A stretch of 64,000 nucleotides of DNA, from positions 124,001-188,000 of the forward strand of contig NZ_VNHY01000003.1 in NCBI RefSeq assembly GCF_008124865.1, read 5' to 3'. The translations under genes were made by a program, and so were the position numbers. Under the pieces are notes generated by a model. It worked only from the letters and a program-made list of their open reading frames with translations, did not search any database and was not told where the DNA came from. Source of the stretch: Fodinibius salinus. Lineage in GTDB: Bacteria; Bacteroidota; Rhodothermia; Balneolales; Balneolaceae. Below are positions 34,825-46,507 of the stretch, one piece after another (position 1 is the first letter of the stretch; each line of letters opens with the position of its first letter).

Positions 34825-36378
34825 TTAATTACCGGTATCGCCGGGACGAACCGCTTCGATGACTTTAACAGTGATGTCTTTGGAGGCAGCAGCTCCATAT
34901 TGATCAGTAGCAATAATCCGAAATTGATTTTTACCAACTTGACGAGCGGTAGGTGTCCATTTAAATACACCGGTAGTTTCGTCAATTGATGCTCCCTGCG
35001 GCATGTTTACACCCAAAAAGCGAATTAGGTTACCGTCCATACCGTCGGGATCAGTAGCCGAAATAGGCAGCGAAAATTCTTCACCTACCGGAATGCTGAC
35101 GGTCCGAACGGGTGCAAACCGCGGCGGAGCATTATATGAGCTAACATCAATATTAAAAGTCGTACTGTCGGTTTTGCCGCTGCTCGTAGTAGCAATTAAC
35201 TTTACGTGATGCTGGCCAATGTCATCTGCAGTGGGTTGCCAGTAGAAACTAAGCCCACGCACTTCTGCATTGTTAATGTCTGGTGACTGGTAGGTAATTT
35301 TTAAATTTTTGACTGAAATATTGTTCTCAAATTTAATCGGCAACAACAGCGGTTTCGAATTGGGTACCGTTTGGTCGCTTATTTTTTTCAGTGATAAAGG
35401 CCCCTGTTGTTTAGTGGATTGTCCGGGTTCCGAAGCCGCTTTACTGACACTTCGAATTTTGCTTATTTGATTATATTCACACAGCCAGAGCGTTCCTTTT
35501 GTAACCGTAAAATAGTTGCCTGCTTCTTGATTATCCTTCCAAATGCTAAGCTTTTGATTCTTATAGGAAGTCCAAAGCCTGCCCGACTGACCTCTGATAA
35601 TCATCCAGTCATTCCAGGATGCTATTTTTGTTGTCCCTTCACCGATTGTCCCCACTGTAGATAAATTTCCGGCGTTGTCGATTTCATAAATGTTACCATC
35701 GGAATTTGATCCATAGAGTGAAGAGTTGACCAAGTAAATATGGTCAAGTGATTTAGACAGCTTAAATTCGTTAACTATTTCAATTGCTTTATCCTCTTTT
35801 GGATCCTTGAACTTATAGAGCTTGTTTCCCCGTGCAAGGGCAAAAAGCTGCTTGCCGGATACTTCAAGATCAATAATTTTCTCATCGTTTAGCCTCGAAC
35901 GGGATATATATTGTACTGTTGAATCAACTGAAGAAGCACTGCGCAGTGATATTTTACCCAGCCCTTTTTGGCCCATTGCTACATATAAATCCTGACCTAT
36001 TCGTTTTACATCCATAGGATTTGCAGGCAGTAAGGTAGCGGAATAGACTCCCAGTAATGAAGTGGGTTCGAGAACGGTCAATCGCCGATTACTGCCAAAG
36101 ATATAGGCAAATCGAATATCAGCGGAAACTGTGTTGCCGCGCTTTTGCATACCCGTTGAAGTATAAAGCCACTGCAGGCTGTCTTGATGTGCGCGAAAAA
36201 CGGCCATACCCTTACTTTTTGATAGAGCATAAAAGTGAGCGGGGGAACTGCTAATTGTAACCACCGATGGAATTTGCATCGTGTAGGAATAATCCTTTTG
36301 CAGGGTGGGTTGTGCGGTAGCTTGGGTAACTATTCCCGTAATTGTACTGATAAGTATTATGGCGATAAAATTTCTCAT
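34825..36378 (-). CDS. Exported beta-propeller-like protein with C-terminal Ig/cadherin-like domains
   Basis: 517 residues. Signal peptide (about 1-22, ATAQ). Residues about 30-310 are strand-rich with repeated short blades (for example MAVFRAHQDSLQWLY, LYVAMGQKGLGKISL, LFALARGNKLYKF, NIYEIDNAGNL), suggesting a WD/LVIVD-type propeller. The end has two Ig-like repeats: WQPTADDIGQHHVKLIATTS and FKWTPTARQVGKNQFRIIATDQYG, the He_PIG pattern, with a DPDGMDG calcium-type loop. Probably secreted or surface-bound; ligand unknown. The gene precedes mutY on the same strand but is functionally unlike it. Confidence 0.75.
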   Translation of the reverse strand: MRNFIAIILISTITGIVTQATAQPTLQKDYSYTMQIPSVVTISSSPAHFYALSKSKGMAVFRAHQDSLQWLYTSTGMQKRGNTVSADIRFAYIFGSNRRLTVLEPTSLLGVYSATLLPANPMDVKRIGQDLYVAMGQKGLGKISLRSASSVDSTVQYISRSRLNDEKIIDLEVSGKQLFALARGNKLYKFKDPKEDKAIEIVNEFKLSKSLDHIYLVNSSLYGSNSDGNIYEIDNAGNLSTVGTIGEGTTKIASWNDWMIIRGQSGRLWTSYKNQKLSIWKDNQEAGNYFTVTKGTLWLCEYNQISKIRSVSKAASEPGQSTKQQGPLSLKKISDQTVPNSKPLLLPIKFENNISVKNLKITYQSPDINNAEVRGLSFYWQPTADDIGQHHVKLIATTSSGKTDSTTFNIDVSSYNAPPRFAPVRTVSIPVGEEFSLPISATDPDGMDGNLIRFLGVNMPQGASIDETTGVFKWTPTARQVGKNQFRIIATDQYGAAASKDITVKVIEAVRPGDTGN

Positions 36379-36394
36379 AATTCTTTTCTATGAT

Positions 36395-37372
36395 TTACAA
36401 CCAGTGATGTCGTTGATACCAGTGAATAGTTCGTGAAATACCCTCGTTTAGGGAGTATTGTGCGTTAAATCCCAATTCTTTTTCGGCTTTTTGGGCGGAG
36501 CAGGTCCATTCAAGCACTAACTCCTTAGCCTTGTCACGATTTAAAACGGGATAAATCCCAAAAAATGATGCAGTTTTTTCTATTGTTCCTGCTATTTTCT
36601 TTACGGTCGAAGGTTTAACATAAATGGGGATATTTTTTTTACCCAGAACTTTGGTCGTGGTTCCACGAATCTGATTCCAGGTATAGATCTGGGGACCAGT
36701 TATAAAATAGGTCTTAATTTCTTTTGGTTGATATTCGGCTGCTTTTAGAATGCCATTTACGACATCAGCCACATACACCATTGAGATGCGTGGGCGGTGT
36801 CCATTACCGATGATGGGGCATATGCGGTTATTCATCATTTTGAAAAATGAATAGATCTGATCTTCGCGCGGACCATAAACTGCAGGGGGGCGAAGAATGG
36901 TGATAGAGATCTCATTGTTGCCAATATCATGAACAATTTCCTCCATCTGTTTCTTTGATTTGCCATACATGCTTACAGGATTCATGGGCTGATCTTCGGT
37001 TACCGGCCCGTTTTGGCTGGGTCCTGCAGCTGCCAGTGAAGAGAGCACTATAAACTTGTTAACTCCCTGCTTTTGAGCAATACGCAGCAGATTTTCAGTT
37101 CCTTGTACATTGGTATGGGCTAGCTGATCGTATGAAGGCGCTTTTACACGGCCGGCAAGATGAAATATTACATCCGCATTTTTAACGGCTTTTTTTAGCA
37201 TATTTAGGTCATCCAGGTCACCGTTTACGCGCACAAAATTTTTGTTTTTCAGCCATTTTTCGTTGTTGCGAATCATGCATCGGACTTCGGTATATTTATC
37301 CGATTCAATTAGCTGGTCCACCAAATGGCTGCCAATAAAACCTGTCCCACCAGTTACAAAGGCTTTCATCAA
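36395..37372 (-). CDS. NAD(P)-dependent epimerase/dehydratase (SDR), candidate ceramide reductase CerR
   Basis: Extended short-chain dehydrogenase of 325 residues: FVTGGTGFIGSHLV (nucleotide-binding GxxGxxG), DVIFHLAGR, and the catalytic YGKSKK (Tyr-x3-Lys) near residue 151. Such proteins act on nucleotide sugars or lipids. In Caulobacter a protein of this family (CerR) reduces oxidised ceramide, and here the gene lies within 2.6 kb of serine palmitoyltransferase, divergent from the glycosyltransferase pair; that role is inferred from position. A nucleotide-sugar epimerase supplying the glycosyltransferases is the main alternative. Confidence 0.83.
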   Translation of the reverse strand: MMKAFVTGGTGFIGSHLVDQLIESDKYTEVRCMIRNNEKWLKNKNFVRVNGDLDDLNMLKKAVKNADVIFHLAGRVKAPSYDQLAHTNVQGTENLLRIAQKQGVNKFIVLSSLAAAGPSQNGPVTEDQPMNPVSMYGKSKKQMEEIVHDIGNNEISITILRPPAVYGPREDQIYSFFKMMNNRICPIIGNGHRPRISMVYVADVVNGILKAAEYQPKEIKTYFITGPQIYTWNQIRGTTTKVLGKKNIPIYVKPSTVKKIAGTIEKTASFFGIYPVLNRDKAKELVLEWTCSAQKAEKELGFNAQYSLNEGISRTIHWYQRHHWL

Positions 37373-37486
37373 ATTTTGTATATTTGGAAACTTAAATAGT
37401 TAGTGATTATGTATTGCAAAGCTAGGTTATTAAGCAATTTTATATCACAGCTAAGATACAAATATCAATGATGCATTGGAAAATTT

Positions 37487-38641
37487 ATGAGTGATCTTCG
37501 AGTAGCAATTTTTACCGGAAATTATAATCATATTCAGGATGGGGTATCACTTACACTAAATAGGCTGGTAGCTTATTTAGAGGAGCAGGATATTCCTGTA
37601 CTAGTATTCGGCCCTACCGTTGATGAGCCTGAGATTGATCATGAGGGAGAGTTTGTGTCTGTGCCGTCGGTACCAATGCCCGGCCGACAGGAATATCGCA
37701 TCACTGTCGGATTTCCTGATGCGGCCCAACGCCGACTTCATGAGTTCGAACCTACACTTATCCATCTGGCCACGCCTGATTTGTTGGGTTTTCGAGCTAT
37801 GCGATGGGCACAGGGCAACGATATTCAAATCGTTTCATCTTATCATACCCATTTTACCAGCTATCTGAAGTATTACAACCTTGGCATGCTTAAAATGTTG
37901 GGCTGGAAATATCTGGAGTGGTTTTACAGCCAGTGTAAACATATTTATGTGCCTTCACCGTCAATGGCTAATGAGCTTAACGAAGAAGGTATTGACGAGG
38001 GCATTCGTATTTGGGCGCGTGGTGTTAATACCGATCAGTTTTCACCTGATTTTCGTGATATGGAGTGGCGCCGGTCGGTGGGGTTTGACGATGATGATCG
38101 AGTCGTGACATTTGTGTCGCGATTGGTATGGGAGAAAAACTTACAGACTTTTGTGGATACAGTTAAGAAGCTTCAACAAACACATCAAAATATTAAGCCG
38201 ATGATTGTGGGTGATGGTCCGGCCTTAAAGGAGTTGGAACATATGTTGACTGATGCCCACTTTACCGGTTTTATTACCGGTGATGAGTTGAGCCGTGCAT
38301 ATGCCAGCAGTGATGTGTTCCTGTTTCCATCTGAGACAGAAACATTTGGCAATGTAACACTTGAGGCAATGTCGAGTGGCTTGCCCTGTGTGGTCGCTGA
38401 CGCAACGGGCAGCCGGTCATTAGTGGAGTCGGGCGTCAATGGATTTTTGGCACCGCCCAGAGATACCGAAGTCTTTGCAGAATGTATAGAAAAGATTGTT
38501 GAAGATGATGAGCTGGCTACAGAAATGGGAGAAGCAGCGCGCCAAAAAGCACTAGCTTATTCGTGGGACAATGTAAACGGCAAGCTGTTGGATAATTATC
38601 GCGAAGCTCTGGACGAGCCACGGCCAGCACTTAAATTTTAG
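37487..38641 (+). CDS. GT4 family glycosyltransferase (SQD2/MgtA-like)
   Basis: GT-B fold retaining glycosyltransferase of 384 residues. The N-terminal acceptor domain starts LRVAIFTGNYNHIQDGVSLTLNRL with SYHTHFTSYLKYY; the C-terminal donor domain has VTFVSRLVWEKNLQTFVDTV, the DGPALKELE turn and the E-x7-E motif in FPSETETFGNVTLEAMSSGLPCV. The pattern is closest in memory to lipid-acting GT4 enzymes such as sulfoquinovosyltransferase and MgtA. It precedes a second GT4 by 16 nt and a serine palmitoyltransferase, so a sphingolipid head group acceptor is plausible (inference). Confidence 0.87.
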   Translation: MSDLRVAIFTGNYNHIQDGVSLTLNRLVAYLEEQDIPVLVFGPTVDEPEIDHEGEFVSVPSVPMPGRQEYRITVGFPDAAQRRLHEFEPTLIHLATPDLLGFRAMRWAQGNDIQIVSSYHTHFTSYLKYYNLGMLKMLGWKYLEWFYSQCKHIYVPSPSMANELNEEGIDEGIRIWARGVNTDQFSPDFRDMEWRRSVGFDDDDRVVTFVSRLVWEKNLQTFVDTVKKLQQTHQNIKPMIVGDGPALKELEHMLTDAHFTGFITGDELSRAYASSDVFLFPSETETFGNVTLEAMSSGLPCVVADATGSRSLVESGVNGFLAPPRDTEVFAECIEKIVEDDELATEMGEAARQKALAYSWDNVNGKLLDNYREALDEPRPALKF

Positions 38642-38657
38642 TCTTAAAAAGCATATT

Positions 38658-39797
38658 GTGCGTATACTTTACGTCTCGCATACACATCCGCCCGAAGGAA
38701 AGATCCTGGAAAATGTAGGCGGAATGCAACGAGTAAGCCAGCAACTTATTAAAGAGCTGAAGCACCAAGAGTCAGTTCGTGTTTTTACAGAAACCATTAA
38801 TGTTTCTGAAGAAGGGAAGATTGCTTTTAACACCGCCTCATTTTTATTCAGGCAGATATTTCGGCTTCCACATAAAATTGAGGAATACAATGCTGATGTG
38901 GTATTGTTCTCTTCGATGGTAACGGCTAGTATATCTTACTTTATCAAACACAAGGTTTCGGTGCCGATGGTGACTATAAATCACGGCCGGGATGTTACGC
39001 TACCCGTAAAATTATATCAGTGGTTTGTACCCAAGATATTTGAGAGCCTGGATGGGGTCATCTCGGTATCAAGGGCTACACGTGAGGAATGTATCAAACG
39101 TGGGATGTCGCCCGATAAGGGCGTTGCGCTGGCTAATGGTTTTGATATGGCAGCGTTAAATAATTTTCCCGATAAGGCAGAATCCCGCCGGCGTTTACAA
39201 CAAAATTTTCGTATCCCGCTTGATAATCATTTTATGTTACTTACCGTAGGACGAAAAGTAAAGCGTAAAGGGCATGAATGGTTTATCCGGGAGGTTATGT
39301 CAAAGCTTGATGACCGCATTATTTATGTGACTGTGGGTGACGGCCCCGAATTTGAAAGTATTGAAGAATTGGCGGAACAGGTTCCATATAGCGACCGCAT
39401 ATTTTTGCTGGGACGCCAGCCCGATGAAGTATTAAAACAGGCCTATGCTGCTGCTGATCTTTTTGTGATGCCCAATATCCCCGTTGAAGGAGATATGGAA
39501 GGTTTTGGCATTGTGCTGTTGGAGGCCAATATGGCACGGACACCGGCTGTAGCATCAGATCTTGAAGGTATTAAAGATGTTATATCGCAGGGCCAAAACG
39601 GGTATCGGGTTCCTACACTTGATGCGGAGCAATTTGCAGTAAAAGTACGAAGTATGCTGGAGGGACAATTGGAACATTTTTCTCGTCAAACACGTACCTA
39701 TGTACAAGAACAGTTTAGTTGGTCTCATGTGGCCCAAGAATACGTCGATTTTTTAGAAACTGTAGTACAAAACCACCATAGCAGGCATATCAATTAA
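38658..39797 (+). CDS. GT4 family glycosyltransferase
   Basis: Second GT-B retaining glycosyltransferase, 379 residues, start GTG 38658. Visible: LRILYVSHTHPPEG-like start (RILYVSHTHPPEGK), an acceptor domain with TINHGRDVTLPVKL, donor domain LLTVGRKVKRKGHEWFIREV, YVTVGDGPEFESIEELAE, and PVEGDMEGFGIVLLEANMARTPAVAS containing the E-x7-E pair. It is unlike its neighbour in sequence, so it probably adds a different sugar to the same product. It is the middle gene of a same-strand run ending in serine palmitoyltransferase and an acyltransferase. Confidence 0.87.
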   Translation: MRILYVSHTHPPEGKILENVGGMQRVSQQLIKELKHQESVRVFTETINVSEEGKIAFNTASFLFRQIFRLPHKIEEYNADVVLFSSMVTASISYFIKHKVSVPMVTINHGRDVTLPVKLYQWFVPKIFESLDGVISVSRATREECIKRGMSPDKGVALANGFDMAALNNFPDKAESRRRLQQNFRIPLDNHFMLLTVGRKVKRKGHEWFIREVMSKLDDRIIYVTVGDGPEFESIEELAEQVPYSDRIFLLGRQPDEVLKQAYAAADLFVMPNIPVEGDMEGFGIVLLEANMARTPAVASDLEGIKDVISQGQNGYRVPTLDAEQFAVKVRSMLEGQLEHFSRQTRTYVQEQFSWSHVAQEYVDFLETVVQNHHSRHIN

Positions 39798-39887
39798 TAT
39801 TATCTTATTCATAATTTGATTGATGTTTAATATGGAAGTATATTTACAATGATAAGCACTCTCCAAAAAAGCCGAAAATAAGAGCGA

Positions 39888-41132
39888 ATGGCCGAATCCA
39901 ATTCTGATGTAAGAACAAAAGATATTTTCTCCAAGGCTTACGATTTCACCAAAGCGGATGAAATCAAAGATCGGGGGCTTTATCCTTACTTTAAACCTCT
40001 GCAGGCCACGGATGGAACTACCGTTCAGATTGATGAACGTGAAGTAATTATGGCTGGCTCCAATAACTATCTGGGGTTAACCAATGACCCTCGTGTTATT
40101 GAAGCGGCACGTGAGGTTCTTAAATCTTATGGAACGGGTTGCACCGGATCGCGTTATTTAAATGGCACGTTGGATCTGCATCTCGAACTTGAAGAGAAGC
40201 TTGCAGACTTTATGCGCAAAGATTCATGCGTGCTTTTTAGTACCGGTTATCAAACCAACGAGGGTGCTATACAAACAATTGCCGGTCGCCGTGACGTTAT
40301 TTTTTCAGATAAAGATAATCATGCTTGTATTGTTACGGGCACGCTTGTTTCTAATGCCAAGACCATGCGATATCAGCATAACAATATGGAACAGCTGGAA
40401 AAGTTGTTAAATCGTGCTGATGAAAAAGCAGGCAAGATTATTGTCAGTGACGGCGTTTTCTCAATGTCAGGGACCATTGCCAAAGTTCCTAAACTAGTAG
40501 AACTAAAGAAGAAGTTTGATACTCGCCTTTATCTTGATGATGCTCATGCCATTGGGGTAGTGGGTGAAGGCGGTCGGGGATCGGCTTCTACGCATGGTCT
40601 GATGGACGAGGTTGATCTGATTAGCGGAACATTTTCTAAGTCATTTGCATCCCTCGGTGGCTTTTTGGTGGGTGATGAAGAAGTAATTGAGTTTATTCGG
40701 CACAATTCTCCTGCGCACATTTTTAGTGCATCTATGCCACCTGCTAATGTGGCTACGGTACTAAAAGCGCTTGAGATCTTGCAGGATGAGACCTGGAGAC
40801 TCGAGCGGCTGGAAGAAATTTCTGATTATATGCGTAATTCTCTCAAAGATATGGGATTCAATGTTTGGAGTTCCCAAACACCTATTATTCCAGTTGTTAT
40901 TGGTGAAATGATGGAGTGTTTCGAATTTTGGAAAGGGCTCTTTGAGGCGGGAGTTTACGTAAATGCAGTAGTACCGCCGGGAGTCCCCGAGGGACAGTCG
41001 CTTGTTCGAACCAGCTATATGGCCACGCACACCGAAGACCATCTCAATCGCATTTTAGAAGCTTTCCGCAAAGTGGGGATTGAACAGGGTATCATCGATC
41101 AAAACGGTCATTCACTACTCGGGGACAATTAG
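39888..41132 (+). CDS. spt: Serine palmitoyltransferase-type alpha-oxoamine synthase
   Basis: PLP enzyme joining serine to palmitoyl-CoA (or acyl-ACP), the first step of sphingolipid synthesis. The 414 residues contain RGLYPYFKPL near the start, GSNNYLGLTNDPRV, YGTGCTGSRYLNGTLDLHLELE (in parts), the cofactor-binding LYLDDAHAIGVVGEGGRGS, and the PLP lysine in GTFSKSFASLGGFLVG. The N-terminal PYF motif and overall pattern resemble Bacteroides serine palmitoyltransferase more than KBL or BioF. A GNAT-like acyltransferase starts 3 nt after its stop. Two glycosyltransferases and an SDR are next to it, so this looks like a sphingolipid locus. Confidence 0.83.
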   Translation: MAESNSDVRTKDIFSKAYDFTKADEIKDRGLYPYFKPLQATDGTTVQIDEREVIMAGSNNYLGLTNDPRVIEAAREVLKSYGTGCTGSRYLNGTLDLHLELEEKLADFMRKDSCVLFSTGYQTNEGAIQTIAGRRDVIFSDKDNHACIVTGTLVSNAKTMRYQHNNMEQLEKLLNRADEKAGKIIVSDGVFSMSGTIAKVPKLVELKKKFDTRLYLDDAHAIGVVGEGGRGSASTHGLMDEVDLISGTFSKSFASLGGFLVGDEEVIEFIRHNSPAHIFSASMPPANVATVLKALEILQDETWRLERLEEISDYMRNSLKDMGFNVWSSQTPIIPVVIGEMMECFEFWKGLFEAGVYVNAVVPPGVPEGQSLVRTSYMATHTEDHLNRILEAFRKVGIEQGIIDQNGHSLLGDN

Positions 41133-41135
41133 ACT

Positions 41136-42269
41136 GTGGCACATTCTCATCGTACTAATGGAATTACACTTGCAACTTCTAAGGAAGAGCGCAAGCAGTT
41201 TATCGACTTTCCCTATCAGCACTATGCTGAAGATGAGTACTGGGTAGCTCCACTTAAGATGGAGCAGAAAAAACTTATTGATGAAGAAAAAAACCCTTTT
41301 TATGAAAATGGCGAAATTGCCCTTTTCCTTGCTGAACAAAATGGTGAGATATGTGGTCGCATAGCAGCTATTTGTGATCACCGCTACAATAATCATCATG
41401 ACAGTAATACTGGTTTCTTTGGATTTTTTGAGTGTATTGATGATCAGTCAGTGGCAGACTTGTTATTTAAAGTAGCCGGAGATTGGCTTCGTGAGCAGGG
41501 GTATACCGATATCTTGGGGCCGGCTAATCCCAGTATGATGGATGAGATAGGTATTTTGGTGGATGGATTTGAGTACTATCCCAGTATTATGATGCCTTAC
41601 CATAAACCATATTACAATAAGCTCATTAAAAATGCCGGTCTTGCCAAAGAAATGGATATGTATGCTTTTAGGGCCACACAGGAAAATGTTAAGTTGGATC
41701 GTATGTACCGGGCCGAAGAAATCGTGCGCCGTCGCCTGCCGCTTCTTGAAATTAGAGAAATCGATTTAAGTCAGATTGACCAGGAAGTCGAAATTGTACG
41801 ACGAATTTTTAACGAAGCCTGGTCGGGGAATTGGGGATTTATTCCTCTTACGAAAGAAGAGTTGGCCGACCTGGCCCAAGACTTAAAACTTATTTTAGCT
41901 ACAAAGGTAGCACATATTGCCGAGGTAGATGGAGAGCCAGTTGCCTTTTCTATTGCACTTCCCGACTTAAACCAAGCGCTCCGGCATATGGATGGTACGC
42001 TCTTTCCGACGGGTATTTTTAAACTGTTATGGCACCGGCGAAATATTGATCAGATTCGTACAGCTTTGATGGGCGTTTTACCTAAATATCAGGGTAAGGG
42101 TATAGATGCACTTCTTCACAAAGAGGCCATTGTTAACGGTAGAGAGGTTGGATACCATTCATCAGAGCTGAGCTGGGTTTTAGAATCCAATAAAGCAATG
42201 ATACAGGTTGCCGAAAAAATTGGTGCTCATATTGAAAAGACCTACCGGATGTACAGTAGTGAGCTTTAA
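41136..42269 (+). CDS. GNAT-like acyltransferase, candidate bacterial ceramide synthase (bCerS-like)
   Basis: 377 residues starting at GTG. The fold is a GNAT-type acyltransferase of the larger N-acyltransferase kind: segments GEIALFLAEQNGEICGRIAAICDHRYNNHH (in parts), GFFGFFECIDD, and GPANPSMMDEIGILVDGFEYYPSIMMPYHKPYY (in parts), and a C-terminal half with VLPKYQGKGIDALLHKEAI, the acyl-CoA loop. Immediate coupling to serine palmitoyltransferase (3 nt) points to N-acylation of the sphingoid base, as for Caulobacter bCerS. The sequence by itself does not prove the substrate. Confidence 0.8.
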   Translation: MAHSHRTNGITLATSKEERKQFIDFPYQHYAEDEYWVAPLKMEQKKLIDEEKNPFYENGEIALFLAEQNGEICGRIAAICDHRYNNHHDSNTGFFGFFECIDDQSVADLLFKVAGDWLREQGYTDILGPANPSMMDEIGILVDGFEYYPSIMMPYHKPYYNKLIKNAGLAKEMDMYAFRATQENVKLDRMYRAEEIVRRRLPLLEIREIDLSQIDQEVEIVRRIFNEAWSGNWGFIPLTKEELADLAQDLKLILATKVAHIAEVDGEPVAFSIALPDLNQALRHMDGTLFPTGIFKLLWHRRNIDQIRTALMGVLPKYQGKGIDALLHKEAIVNGREVGYHSSELSWVLESNKAMIQVAEKIGAHIEKTYRMYSSEL

Positions 42270-42437: not shown

Positions 42438-43832
42438 ATGAGCGATTACCGTGTTGAAGAAGATTCAATGGGTGAAATTAATGTTCCCAAAGATGCTTAT
42501 TATGGCGCACAAACCCAGCGAGCGATAGATAACTTTCCTGTAAGTGATATTCGATTCAGCCGAAATTTCATTGAAGCCTTGGGTATGGTTAAAGAGCATG
42601 CCGCTAAGGTCAATGCCGCTCTTGGCGAAGTTGATGAAGGGATAGCCAACGCTATAAAGCAGGCTGCGCAAGAGGTATCTGAAGGTGCATTTGATAAAGA
42701 TTTTGCTATCGACATTTTCCAGACGGGTTCCGGTACTTCCACCAATATGAATGCTAACGAGATTATTGCTCGTCGTGCCAATGAGATAAAAGATGATGAT
42801 GTAGAGGTCGATATTCATCCTAATGATCATGTCAATTATGGGCAGAGTTCTAATGATGTAATTCCGACGTCTATTCGTTTATCAGCAGTATTAGCTGTAA
42901 AAAATACTCTCATACCTGCACTTAAAGAACTTAAAGAAGAATTTCAGGCAAAAGGCAACGAATTTTCCGATGTAGCGAAAACAGGTCGTACCCACCTGAT
43001 GGATGCGATGCCGGTAACCATCAAGCAGGAGTTTGATGGTTATTCTCGTCAGCTGCAGTTGAACATTGAACGACTGGAGTCGGCGCTGGAACGGATGACA
43101 GAACTTCCGCAGGGTGGTACCGCGGTAGGAACAGGCTTAAACACAAATCCGAAGTTTGGAGCCGAGATGGCGGCATCATTGTCAGAAGAAACGGGTATTG
43201 ATTTTAGTGAAGCTGAAGATCACTTTGAGGCACAGGCAACAGTTGACGCCCCGGTAGAACTGAGTGGTCAGCTCAAAACCATTGCAGTGGGACTTATGAA
43301 AATGGGTAACGATCTGCGATGGATGAACTCCGGTCCCAATAGTGGCATTGGCGAAATTAAACTCGAAGCGCTACAGCCGGGCTCATCAATTATGCCGGGC
43401 AAGATAAATCCAGTGATTGAAGAGTCAATAACTATGGTTTGTGCTCAGGTTATTGGTAATGATTCGGCCATTACTGTAGCGGGACAGTCCGGTAATTTTG
43501 AGCTTAACGTAATGCTGCCGGTAGTGGCACATAATCTGTTGGAATCTATTACTATACTGGGAAATGCCGTCGCTAATTTTGCTCGAAAATCGGTTTCTCG
43601 ACTAACTGTTAATAAAGACAAGGTAGCTGATATGGTGGGACGAAATCCGGTATTAGTTACCGCATTGAATCCGCTTATCGGGTATGATAAAGCTTCCAAA
43701 ATAGCTAAAAAGGCATTTAAAGAGGAGCGTCCTGTGAAAGAAGTCGCTCGTGAGATGACAGATTTGAGCGATGAAGAATTGGATGAAGCACTAGATCCCA
43801 TTAAGATGACGAAGGGCGGTTTTATGGAATAA
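42438..43832 (+). CDS. fumC: Fumarate hydratase class II
   Basis: TCA-cycle interconversion of fumarate and malate without iron-sulfur. Aspartase/fumarase superfamily; 464 residues. Visible: an N-terminal VEEDSMGEINVPKDAYYGAQTQRA region, FQTGSGTSTNMNANEIIA, HPNDHVNYGQSSNDVIPT, TGRTHLMDAMPVT and the loop PGSSIMPGKINPVIEE with the catalytic Ser. Aspartate ammonia-lyase is the relative to exclude; the AYYGAQTQRA/HPNDHVN pattern fits FumC. It stands alone, 168 nt after the ceramide-type genes. Confidence 0.95.
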   Translation: MSDYRVEEDSMGEINVPKDAYYGAQTQRAIDNFPVSDIRFSRNFIEALGMVKEHAAKVNAALGEVDEGIANAIKQAAQEVSEGAFDKDFAIDIFQTGSGTSTNMNANEIIARRANEIKDDDVEVDIHPNDHVNYGQSSNDVIPTSIRLSAVLAVKNTLIPALKELKEEFQAKGNEFSDVAKTGRTHLMDAMPVTIKQEFDGYSRQLQLNIERLESALERMTELPQGGTAVGTGLNTNPKFGAEMAASLSEETGIDFSEAEDHFEAQATVDAPVELSGQLKTIAVGLMKMGNDLRWMNSGPNSGIGEIKLEALQPGSSIMPGKINPVIEESITMVCAQVIGNDSAITVAGQSGNFELNVMLPVVAHNLLESITILGNAVANFARKSVSRLTVNKDKVADMVGRNPVLVTALNPLIGYDKASKIAKKAFKEERPVKEVAREMTDLSDEELDEALDPIKMTKGGFME

Positions 43833-44065: not shown

Positions 44066-46507
44066 ATGGCACCTACAAAAACAAAAGAAAGCACACAGTC
44101 TGAGGCTGAAATTGATATTGAAAATCGCAAGGAAGAAATTCTCCAAGATTATAAACTGGCGGTAAAGAGCCGTGAAGTTTCCTATATCGGTCGCAAAGAA
44201 ACGCTTACCGGAAAGGCCAAGTTCGGTATTTTTGGAGACGGTAAGGAGCTTCCCCAGATTGCCATGGCCAAGTATTTTAAGAACGGTGATTTCCGTGCTG
44301 GATATTACCGTGATCAGACTTTCATGATGGCTATTGATCAAGTAACTATACAGCAATTTTTTGCTCAGCTGTATGCACATGCTAATATCGAAGAAGAACC
44401 GAATTCCGGCGGTCGCCAAATGAATGCCCACTTTAGCACACGAAGCCTCAATGATGATGGCAGTTGGAAGGATCTGACAGAGATGAAAAATACGTCTCCC
44501 GATATTTCCCCCACCGCCGGACAGATGTCACGCCTGCTTGGATTAGCACAAGCTTCACAGATTTATCGTAATCACGATGAGCTGTTGGACAAAGAAGAAT
44601 TTCAAAAGTTTTCAGATGACGGTAGTGAAATTGCGTGGGGCACAATTGGTGATGCCAGTACTTCGGAAGGGGTCTTTTGGGAAACTATCAATGCTGCCGG
44701 TGTGCTGCAGGTCCCGATGGTACTTTCTGTATGGGATGACGGCTATGGCATTTCAGTACCGCGCAAATACCAGACCACCAAAGAAAGTATTTCTGATGTT
44801 CTGGCTGGTTTTCAGCGTACTGAAGATCAAGAGGGACTGGAAATTCTGACCGTTAATGCTTGGGATTATCCTGCGCTAATGAAGACCTATGAAGAAGCTG
44901 CTGCTATTGCACGGGAAGAACATGTTCCGGTGCTTATTCATGTAAAAGAAGTTACGCAGCCACAGGGGCATTCTACCTCAGGTTCGCATGAGCGATATAA
45001 GTCGGATGAACGCCTGGAGTGGGAAGAAGAATTCTGCTGTATCAACAAAACGCGTCAGTGGTTGATCGACGAAGATATTGCTACTGCTGATGAAATTGAA
45101 GAGATCGAAGAGGCTGCCAAATCAGAGGTAAAAGATGCTCAGAAAGCAGCATGGAAATCCTTTAAGGGAGAGCTCAAAGAAGAGCTCAAAACAGCTACTG
45201 CACTTATAGATGATTTATCTTCAGAAAGTTCGCACGCTGATGCGCTTAAAGAGGTTAAAAAGGAGATGAAGGCACCGATGGTTCCGTTGCGCAAATATAT
45301 TGTTTCAGGAGTGCGTAAAGCCCTTCGCATTGTCCGTGATGAGCAGCTGGAAAGCAAGAATAAGCTAAAGCAGTGGCTGGATGAAAGTAATCAGGCAAAT
45401 GAAGAGCGGTACGATACGCATTTGTATAGTGAAACAGCAGATTCACCGCTTAATGTAGAAGAAGTGACACCTACTTATTCGGATGATCCCGAAGAAGTAG
45501 ATGGACGTGTTGTATTGCGTGATAATTTTGATAAGCTCTTTGAACAATATCCTGAGACGCTCGTTTTTGGTGAGGACACCGGTAAGCTGGGTGATGTAAA
45601 TAAAGGACTTGAAAATATGCAGGATAAATATGGCGAACTGCGTGTCCGCGATACCGGCATTCGTGAGGCTACTATTTTAGGACAGGGCATTGGGATGGCG
45701 CTGCGCGGACTCCGACCCATTGCCGAAATTCAGTATCTCGATTATCTGCTGTACTGTTTTCAGGGATTAAGTGATGACCTTGCCACTGTTCGCTACCGCA
45801 GCATGGGCGGACAGAAGGCACCGCTGATTGTCCGTACGCGGGGGCATCGTCTTGAGGGAATATGGCACACCGGTTCTCCCATGGGTATGATTATCAACGG
45901 AGTTCGGGGGCTACATGTGTGCGTGCCCCGCAATCTTACGGAAGCGGCAGGCATGTACAATACGCTGTTGCAGGGTGATGATCCTGCACTGATGATTGAA
46001 CCGCTCAATGCGTATCGCCTGAAGGAAAAAATGCCGGATAATCTGGGTGAATTTACGGTGCCGCTCGGTATTCCCAATATTGTTTCAGAAGGTAGTGATA
46101 TTACTATTGTTTCTTATGGATCTACTTGTAACATTTGTGAATCGGTACTTCCGGAACTTGAAGAAGTTGGCATTTCTGCTGAGCTTATTGACGTGCGTAC
46201 ATTGTTGCCGTTCGATCGCAACCAAGATATTGTAGCATCGCTCGAAAAAACGAATCGCATTTTGTTTGTGGATGAGGATGTGCCGGGCGGCGCGTCGGCC
46301 TATATGATGAACAAAGTACTTCAGGAGCAGAAAGGGTATTATTATCTGGATTCTGAACCTCAATGTCTCACCGCTAAAGCACATCGTGGAGCATATGGTT
46401 CTGATGGTGATTACTTTTCCAAGCCTAATGAAGAGGATATCTTTGAGGCGATATATGCGCTTATGAGTGAGGCTAATCCGGCCCAATATCCACCGATTTA
46501 TGAATAA
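44066..46507 (+). CDS. Fused E1 alpha/beta 2-oxoacid dehydrogenase (branched-chain or pyruvate type)
   Basis: 813-residue thiamine-diphosphate E1 component with alpha (about 20-300) and beta (about 470-810) parts in one chain, joined by a highly charged helical linker of about 150 residues. Alpha part: YYRDQTFMMAI and GDASTSEGVFWETIN...SVWDDGYGIS, where the usual ThDP motif GDG...NN reads GDA...DD. Beta part: VFGEDTG, RVRDTGIREATILGQGIGMAL, AEIQYLDYLLYCF, then a transketolase C-terminal domain with DVRTLLPFD. Fused forms of this sort are common in Bacteroidota. E2 and E3 genes are not in the window, so the substrate cannot be fixed. Confidence 0.9.
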   Translation: MAPTKTKESTQSEAEIDIENRKEEILQDYKLAVKSREVSYIGRKETLTGKAKFGIFGDGKELPQIAMAKYFKNGDFRAGYYRDQTFMMAIDQVTIQQFFAQLYAHANIEEEPNSGGRQMNAHFSTRSLNDDGSWKDLTEMKNTSPDISPTAGQMSRLLGLAQASQIYRNHDELLDKEEFQKFSDDGSEIAWGTIGDASTSEGVFWETINAAGVLQVPMVLSVWDDGYGISVPRKYQTTKESISDVLAGFQRTEDQEGLEILTVNAWDYPALMKTYEEAAAIAREEHVPVLIHVKEVTQPQGHSTSGSHERYKSDERLEWEEEFCCINKTRQWLIDEDIATADEIEEIEEAAKSEVKDAQKAAWKSFKGELKEELKTATALIDDLSSESSHADALKEVKKEMKAPMVPLRKYIVSGVRKALRIVRDEQLESKNKLKQWLDESNQANEERYDTHLYSETADSPLNVEEVTPTYSDDPEEVDGRVVLRDNFDKLFEQYPETLVFGEDTGKLGDVNKGLENMQDKYGELRVRDTGIREATILGQGIGMALRGLRPIAEIQYLDYLLYCFQGLSDDLATVRYRSMGGQKAPLIVRTRGHRLEGIWHTGSPMGMIINGVRGLHVCVPRNLTEAAGMYNTLLQGDDPALMIEPLNAYRLKEKMPDNLGEFTVPLGIPNIVSEGSDITIVSYGSTCNICESVLPELEEVGISAELIDVRTLLPFDRNQDIVASLEKTNRILFVDEDVPGGASAYMMNKVLQEQKGYYYLDSEPQCLTAKAHRGAYGSDGDYFSKPNEEDIFEAIYALMSEANPAQYPPIYE

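Follow-up and report, generated by a model that had tools for sequence, protein, structure and literature searches.

Organization of the Locus

The window examined here is a 64,000-nucleotide stretch of the Fodinibius salinus genome (2.86 Mb, 98.5% complete) that corresponds to positions 124001–188000 of the forward strand of contig C3. F. salinus belongs to the family Balneolaceae of the order Balneolales, phylum Balneolota. Within the window lies a unit of ~6 kb that carries candidate genes leading from serine to a glycosylated ceramide; ceramide is familiar mainly as an animal and plant lipid. At one end of the unit, an extended short-chain dehydrogenase/reductase (SDR) of 325 aa is encoded at 36395–37372 (−). 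This protein has an N-terminal TGxxGxxG motif and catalytic S/Y/K residues with YGKSK, and is the candidate ceramide reductase, CerR. The intergenic region that follows (37373–37486) separates cerR from a divergent run of genes, GT1-GT2-spt-bcerS, and is presumed from this layout to be a promoter region. The run begins with GT1 (37487–38641, +), a glycosyltransferase family 4 (GT4)-type enzyme that resembles lipid glycosyltransferases in Pfam and NCBIfam searches, and GT2 (38658–39797, +), a second GT4-type enzyme recognized by Pfam. These are followed by the 414-aa serine palmitoyltransferase Spt (39888–41132, +), assigned from NCBIfam, a PDB match, a tree and its residues, and by a YghO-like tandem-GNAT N-acyltransferase (41136–42269, +; 377 aa, GTG start) that is a candidate bacterial ceramide synthase, bCerS, based on homology, a tree and a structural model.

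An earlier, sequence-only reading of this stretch had proposed a ceramide locus at 36395–42269, in which a GNAT-like acyltransferase begins 3 nt after Spt and an SDR is close by. The 3-nt gap between Spt and the GNAT is confirmed, and the SDR is indeed nearby, on the strand opposite to Spt. Alongside the three genes that were named, the two GT4 glycosyltransferases between the SDR and Spt (37487–39797) had been passed over. The statement that no dedicated acyl carrier protein (ACP) is present holds: the unit contains none, and the sole PF00550 protein found in the genome sits on another contig.

The arrangement of these genes is not due to chance, as an SDR (−) divergent from GT1...Spt-GNAT (+) is kept in 38/38 distinct Balneolota loci whose upstream sequence reaches far enough. 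The gap between Spt and the GNAT is 3 nt in most loci of the same genus, and in nearly all other Balneolales loci it lies between −8 and 80 nt. These genes point to a locus for ceramide synthesis by the bacterial route, with probable glycosylation of the product, a reading to which a probability of roughly 0.75 is given; of its two parts, ceramide synthesis by the cluster is very probable and the addition of sugar is probable.

Identity of the Serine Palmitoyltransferase

The best NCBIfam model for the window pyridoxal phosphate (PLP)-dependent enzyme is SerpalmtaseCFB (492.6 bits), while the KBL and BioF models score 386 and 382 bits, below their respective cut-offs of 460 and 426. Comparison with PDB entries gives 412 bits for the Spt of Sphingobacterium multivorum, 275 bits for the top-scoring entry that bears only the KBL name, 235 bits for cysteate acyltransferase and 224 bits for SulA. 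In a tree of 35 proteins, which included the S. multivorum Spt, the Spts of the Sphingomonas and E. coli clusters, KBL, BioF and SulA, the window enzyme groups with the Spts and is split from KBL, BioF and SulA at support 94/91. On this split and the profile scores, a KBL or BioF identity is rejected for the window enzyme; such an identity is the outcome that the sequence-only reading had named as refuting it.

The catalytic residues of Spt (the PLP lysine Lys251, His145, Asp217, His220 and Arg374) are all invariant. Thirty residues past Lys251, the window enzyme has Ala281 at the position of Lys281 in SulA, and Ala is also found there in the other Balneolales Spts read at this position. Lys281, which is Ala in Spt, distinguishes SulA from Spt (PMC9304779), and on the strength of Ala281 a SulA, sulfonolipid-forming identity is rejected. 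The serine palmitoyltransferase call made from sequence alone is thus supported by the tree, the best model, the PDB scores and Ala281.

The Ceramide Synthase and Reductase Candidates

The window GNAT is 35–39% identical over its full length to five GNATs from Spt clusters, namely those of Rubrobacter (39%), Streptomyces, Aureispira, Sphingomonas (38%) and E. coli (YghO, 35%), with E-values down to 1e-96. In these and the following comparisons, cluster members of Sphingomonas (locus L021) and E. coli (locus L026) stood in for the Caulobacter proteins. A tblastn search of plasmid records with the GNAT also returned GNATs at 27–39% identity, E. coli YghO among them. The GNAT is present in 39/39 Balneolales genomes, and in a quick tree with some long branches it falls among Balneolota and Rhodothermota GNATs that are encoded beside Spt, and apart from its own paralogue in the genome. 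No useful relative was found in a PDB sequence search, and none of the Pfam or NCBIfam models is specific for a bacterial ceramide synthase. An AlphaFold2 model shows a tandem GNAT fold (predicted local distance difference test (pLDDT) 93.4, predicted template modeling score (pTM) 0.90); tandem-repeat GNATs are its best matches among PDB structures, and FemX and an N-myristoyltransferase appear lower in the list. The identity to GNATs of Spt clusters, the linkage to Spt and the tree all favor the earlier suggestion of a bCerS-like enzyme, and the GNAT is accordingly presented as a candidate bCerS.

The SDR was compared with a CerR profile made from five Spt-linked cluster SDRs, from which the window protein was excluded. 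Across the F. salinus genome, the window SDR scores 267.8 bits with this profile and the next locus 85.2 bits, in support of the CerR assignment proposed by the sequence-only reading. The window SDR is 36% identical to the cluster SDR of Aureispira and 30–32% identical to those of Rubrobacter and Streptomyces, and the cofactor motif and the catalytic Ser, Tyr and Lys are found in the alignment. The protein begins directly at the cofactor motif, and a leader is not evident in its sequence; CerR is reported to be periplasmic in Caulobacter (PMC11087976). These data make the SDR a candidate ceramide reductase.

The Glycosyltransferases

GT1 lies between cerR and spt, on the spt strand, in 38/38 Balneolota loci, and a GT2-type or second glycosyltransferase is found in 31/38. 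The best NCBIfam model for GT1 is N-acetylglucosaminyl phosphatidylglycerol synthase, at 172 bits with a cut-off of 480. Glycosphingolipid synthesis in Caulobacter depends on Sgt1 and Sgt2, two GT-4 enzymes that act in sequence (PMC6445935). As GT1 and GT2 are conserved inside the unit in Balneolota, the unit looks, on the simplest reading, like a glycosphingolipid cluster.

Comparison with Known Systems

The ceramide cluster genes described for Rhodobacteria are aasR, cerR, acpR, spt and cerS, the last being bcerS (PMC11324152, PMC11087976), and the clusters of Sphingomonas and E. coli correspond to the five ceramide genes of PMC11324152. In Sphingomonas the GNAT is near LptF/LptG and an SDR-ACP-Spt run, and in E. 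coli yghO is beside spt, acp, an SDR and an acyl-AMP ligase. The window locus resembles the Caulobacter/Rhodobacteria cluster in that homologous Spt, GNAT bCerS and extended-SDR CerR are found in one neighborhood (as read in the Sphingomonas and E. coli records). In contrast to that cluster, it lacks a dedicated ACP or acyl-ACP synthetase and includes two GT4 genes. Furthermore, cerS is "always" in a different operon from aasR-cerR-acpR-spt (PMC11324152), whereas in the window 3 nt separate spt from the bcerS that follows it, and cerR points the other way. Of the match to the Caulobacter Spt, bCerS and CerR set that was originally drawn, the three gene identities are supported while the layout differs.

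The placement of a cerS candidate directly after spt is also found in several other phyla. Outside Balneolota, the GNAT directly adjoins Spt in 34/51 named loci, a set that is biased towards relatives of Balneolota, as the genome scan used an order-level GNAT alignment. In 15 genomes the GNAT does not adjoin Spt, and 14 of these carry Spt elsewhere at 52–55% identity. Ignavibacteria and their relatives (L087, L089–L091, L093, L096–L100, L106 and L127) have a bCerS-like GNAT away from Spt, with an Spt elsewhere (52–55%) in 12/12 genomes. Rubrobacter and Streptomyces have Spt-GNAT-SDR runs that hold the same three genes, with no GT1 or GT2 match between the SDR and Spt. In Aureispira, Ignavibacteria, Zixibacteria and Gemmatimonadota, the same three genes show the same divergent layout as in the window, an SDR (−) followed by Spt-GNAT (+), but no GT1 or GT2 match is found between them; this arrangement is also seen in Planctomycetota. 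In Rhodothermota the Spt-GNAT pair stands alone, with no SDR, GT1 or GT2 match beside it. As these phyla have the divergent unit or the Spt-GNAT pair without matches to GT1 and GT2, these two genes seem to have been added in Balneolota.

Caulobacter Sgt1 and Sgt2 (PMC6445935) are also two GT4-type enzymes tied to ceramide, a likeness drawn from their description and not from sequence. The sgt genes of Caulobacter are in a separate, phosphate-responsive locus, whereas the window glycosyltransferases are fixed next to spt. SulA, the cysteate fatty acyltransferase of Alistipes (PMC9304779), shares the fold and chemistry class of the window Spt and differs from it in having Lys281 in place of Ala281.

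A Probable Second Long-Chain-Base Pathway

The F. salinus genome encodes three members of the α-oxoamine synthase family: the window Spt, BioF and a SulA homologue. The SulA homologue is encoded on another contig (G000:C2:554237-555475, equivalent to L051:7238-8476, +) and has Lys at the diagnostic position. It scores 473 bits with cysteate acyltransferase, 435 bits with SulA and 229 bits with Spt; the organism probably makes sulfonolipids as well. Among the sampled genomes, SulA homologues scoring above 640 bits are found in 22/23 from the window's family and in 0/16 from the other four Balneolales families. As the window locus is found in all of these genomes and the SulA homologue in the window's family only, the genes for sphingolipids appear to be older than sulA and common to the whole order.

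Two further clades of YghO-like GNATs occur in the family (L049:8104-9246, +, equivalent to G000:C3:220103-221245, and L053, L147 and L148), one of which groups with a Bacteroides GNAT encoded beside topoisomerase IV subunit B and coaD. These GNATs are possible N-acyltransferases for sulfonolipids, although they do not co-occur perfectly with sulA. The second GNAT paralogue of the F. salinus genome tracks sulA at the level of the family, but two genomes (G015 and G016) have a sulA homologue and lack the paralogue; a role as capnine N-acyltransferase is weakly supported. Two genes a few kb from sulA encode possible lipid-modifying enzymes, one of the fatty acid hydroxylase superfamily (PF04116; L051:603-1238, −) and one of a sulfotransferase family (L051:1423-2550, −).

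Proposed Pathway and Alternative Explanations

In the proposed pathway, Spt would condense L-serine with an acyl thioester to give 3-ketosphinganine, the GNAT bCerS would N-acylate the long-chain base, and the SDR CerR would reduce the 3-keto group. GT1, and then GT2, would add one or two sugars to give a glycosphingolipid for the outer membrane. From the genes we infer the enzyme activities, the order of acylation and reduction, the identity of the sugars, ceramide as the acceptor for GT1 and GT2, the cellular location of the steps and a role in place of lipid A. Several points weigh against this pathway. The lipid products are predicted from genes, a gene for flipping or transporting sphingolipids was not identified, and a second glycosyltransferase was not detected in 7/38 Balneolota loci (one family and a few other loci). 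In addition, the specificity of GT1 and GT2 cannot be read from sequence, and ceramide is their presumed acceptor. The window Spt falls under the equivalog cut-off of SerpalmtaseCFB (492.6 versus 640 bits). The cluster Spts of Aureispira (487 bits) and Rubrobacter (444 bits) likewise fall short of 640 bits, suggesting that this model is narrow and that its cut-off does not define Spt. Finally, the characterized Bacteroides reductase BT_0972, which was found through similarity to a yeast reductase, appears to be another type of SDR (PMC9278070), suggesting that reductases differ among bacteria.

The assignment of sugar transfer can be questioned on the grounds that the best models for GT1 include glycerolipid enzymes (glucosaminyl phosphatidylglycerol synthase and monoglucosyldiacylglycerol synthase, all far under cut-off) and that the Spt-GNAT pairs of Rhodothermota and Ignavibacteria have no GT1 or GT2 match beside them. 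The locus might then make plain or otherwise decorated ceramide, with GT1 and GT2 acting on diacylglycerol or another lipid as neighbors only. Given the fixed position of GT1 between cerR and spt in each of the 38 Balneolota loci, and the precedent of Caulobacter Sgt1 as a ceramide-specific GT-4 enzyme (PMC6445935), this explanation is unlikely, though it deserves to be taken seriously. It is considerably less probable that the SDR is a sugar-nucleotide or hopanoid-type (HpnA-like) epimerase that works with GT1 and GT2 while another enzyme reduces the ketone. The best NCBIfam model for the SDR is indeed HpnA (135 bits, cut-off 368), followed by sugar epimerases, B. thetaiotaomicron uses another reductase (PMC9278070), and the Rhodothermota pairs have no SDR match beside them. 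The CerR profile, however, separates the SDR (268 bits) from any other locus in the genome (85 bits), and SDR homologues are found beside Spt-GNAT where GT1 and GT2 are missing, in Ignavibacteria, Zixibacteria, Gemmatimonadota and Planctomycetota.

The remaining explanations concern the PLP enzyme. Sulfonolipids occur in Salinibacter, a member of the related Rhodothermota (PMC1586193), SulA shares the Spt fold and F. salinus itself has a SulA homologue, so the locus could be imagined to make a capnine-type sulfonolipid, with the PLP enzyme as cysteate acyltransferase and the GNAT as capnine N-acyltransferase. This is highly improbable, as the window enzyme carries Ala281 and falls with the Spts in the tree, the Lys-bearing SulA homologue is encoded by a separate gene on another contig, and the window locus is kept in Balneolales families that have no SulA homologue. 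Names are often mixed up in the α-oxoamine synthase family, and an enzyme of the KBL or BioF type would make the locus unrelated to sphingolipids; with the tree and profile scores placing the enzyme with Spt, and a separate BioF on another contig that exceeds its model cut-off (431.8 versus 426.45 bits), there is next to no likelihood of this. Ceramide synthesis followed by glycosylation is consequently the preferred reading of the locus.

Neighboring Genes

Beyond cerR, most Balneolota loci have genes for DUF2400, MutY and a propeller protein. The last is encoded in the window at 34825–36378 (−), 16 nt downstream of cerR and on the same strand, and matches Pfam He_PIG. This protein adjoins cerR throughout the order and has a predicted leader helix, a β-propeller and an immunoglobulin-like C-terminus. 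In its structural model (pLDDT 83.9, pTM 0.58), the propeller part matches BamB and PorZ in fold. Downstream of the locus, a class II fumarase/aspartase-type lyase (42438–43832, +) and a fused pyruvate dehydrogenase-type E1 alpha-beta protein (44066–46507, +) are found, as in much of the family.

Lipid A and the Outer Membrane

Profile searches of Balneolales genomes detected LpxC in 0/39, LpxB in 0/39 and LpxK in 0/23, while the E. coli, Caulobacter and Bacteroides controls were positive in each search. The failure to find these genes, although Omp85 is present in 39/39 genomes, suggests an outer membrane without lipid A in Balneolales. Sphingomonas is naturally without lipid A and has glycosphingolipids, and growth of Caulobacter without lipid A needs a sphingolipid (PMC10964400). 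Balneolales thus resemble Sphingomonas in that lipid A is apparently missing, and glycosylated ceramides may be a candidate substitute for it. The failure to detect the Lpx genes and the precedents of Sphingomonas and Caulobacter make glycosphingolipids a serious hypothesis for a lipopolysaccharide (LPS) substitute in Balneolota.

In its broadest form, the proposal is that the whole order Balneolales is without lipid A and that the conserved spt-bcerS-cerR-GT1(-GT2) locus supplies glycosphingolipids that replace LPS, with sulfonolipids in addition in the window's family. This proposal is tentative, falling a little short of an even chance, and it is weakened by the fact that the lipid A negative comes from profile searches that covered three enzyme families. 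In the open-access literature, no paper was found that joins Balneola with lpxC and LPS; the few open-access papers that name both Balneola and sphingolipids do not appear to connect them with lipid A replacement, and nothing direct on LPS or sphingolipids in Balneolota was found.

It is an open question why bacteria can so seldom do without lipid A and what may take its place; sphingolipids are suggested by both Sphingomonas and conditional mutants of Caulobacter (PMC10964400). If the proposal is true, Balneolales would join Sphingomonas as an example of an LPS-free outer membrane, one that spans a whole lineage and is probably ancient. Rhodohalobacter, Gracilimonas and Fodinibius would then offer a natural, lineage-wide test system, with candidate genes for all steps of the pathway in one 6-kb unit.

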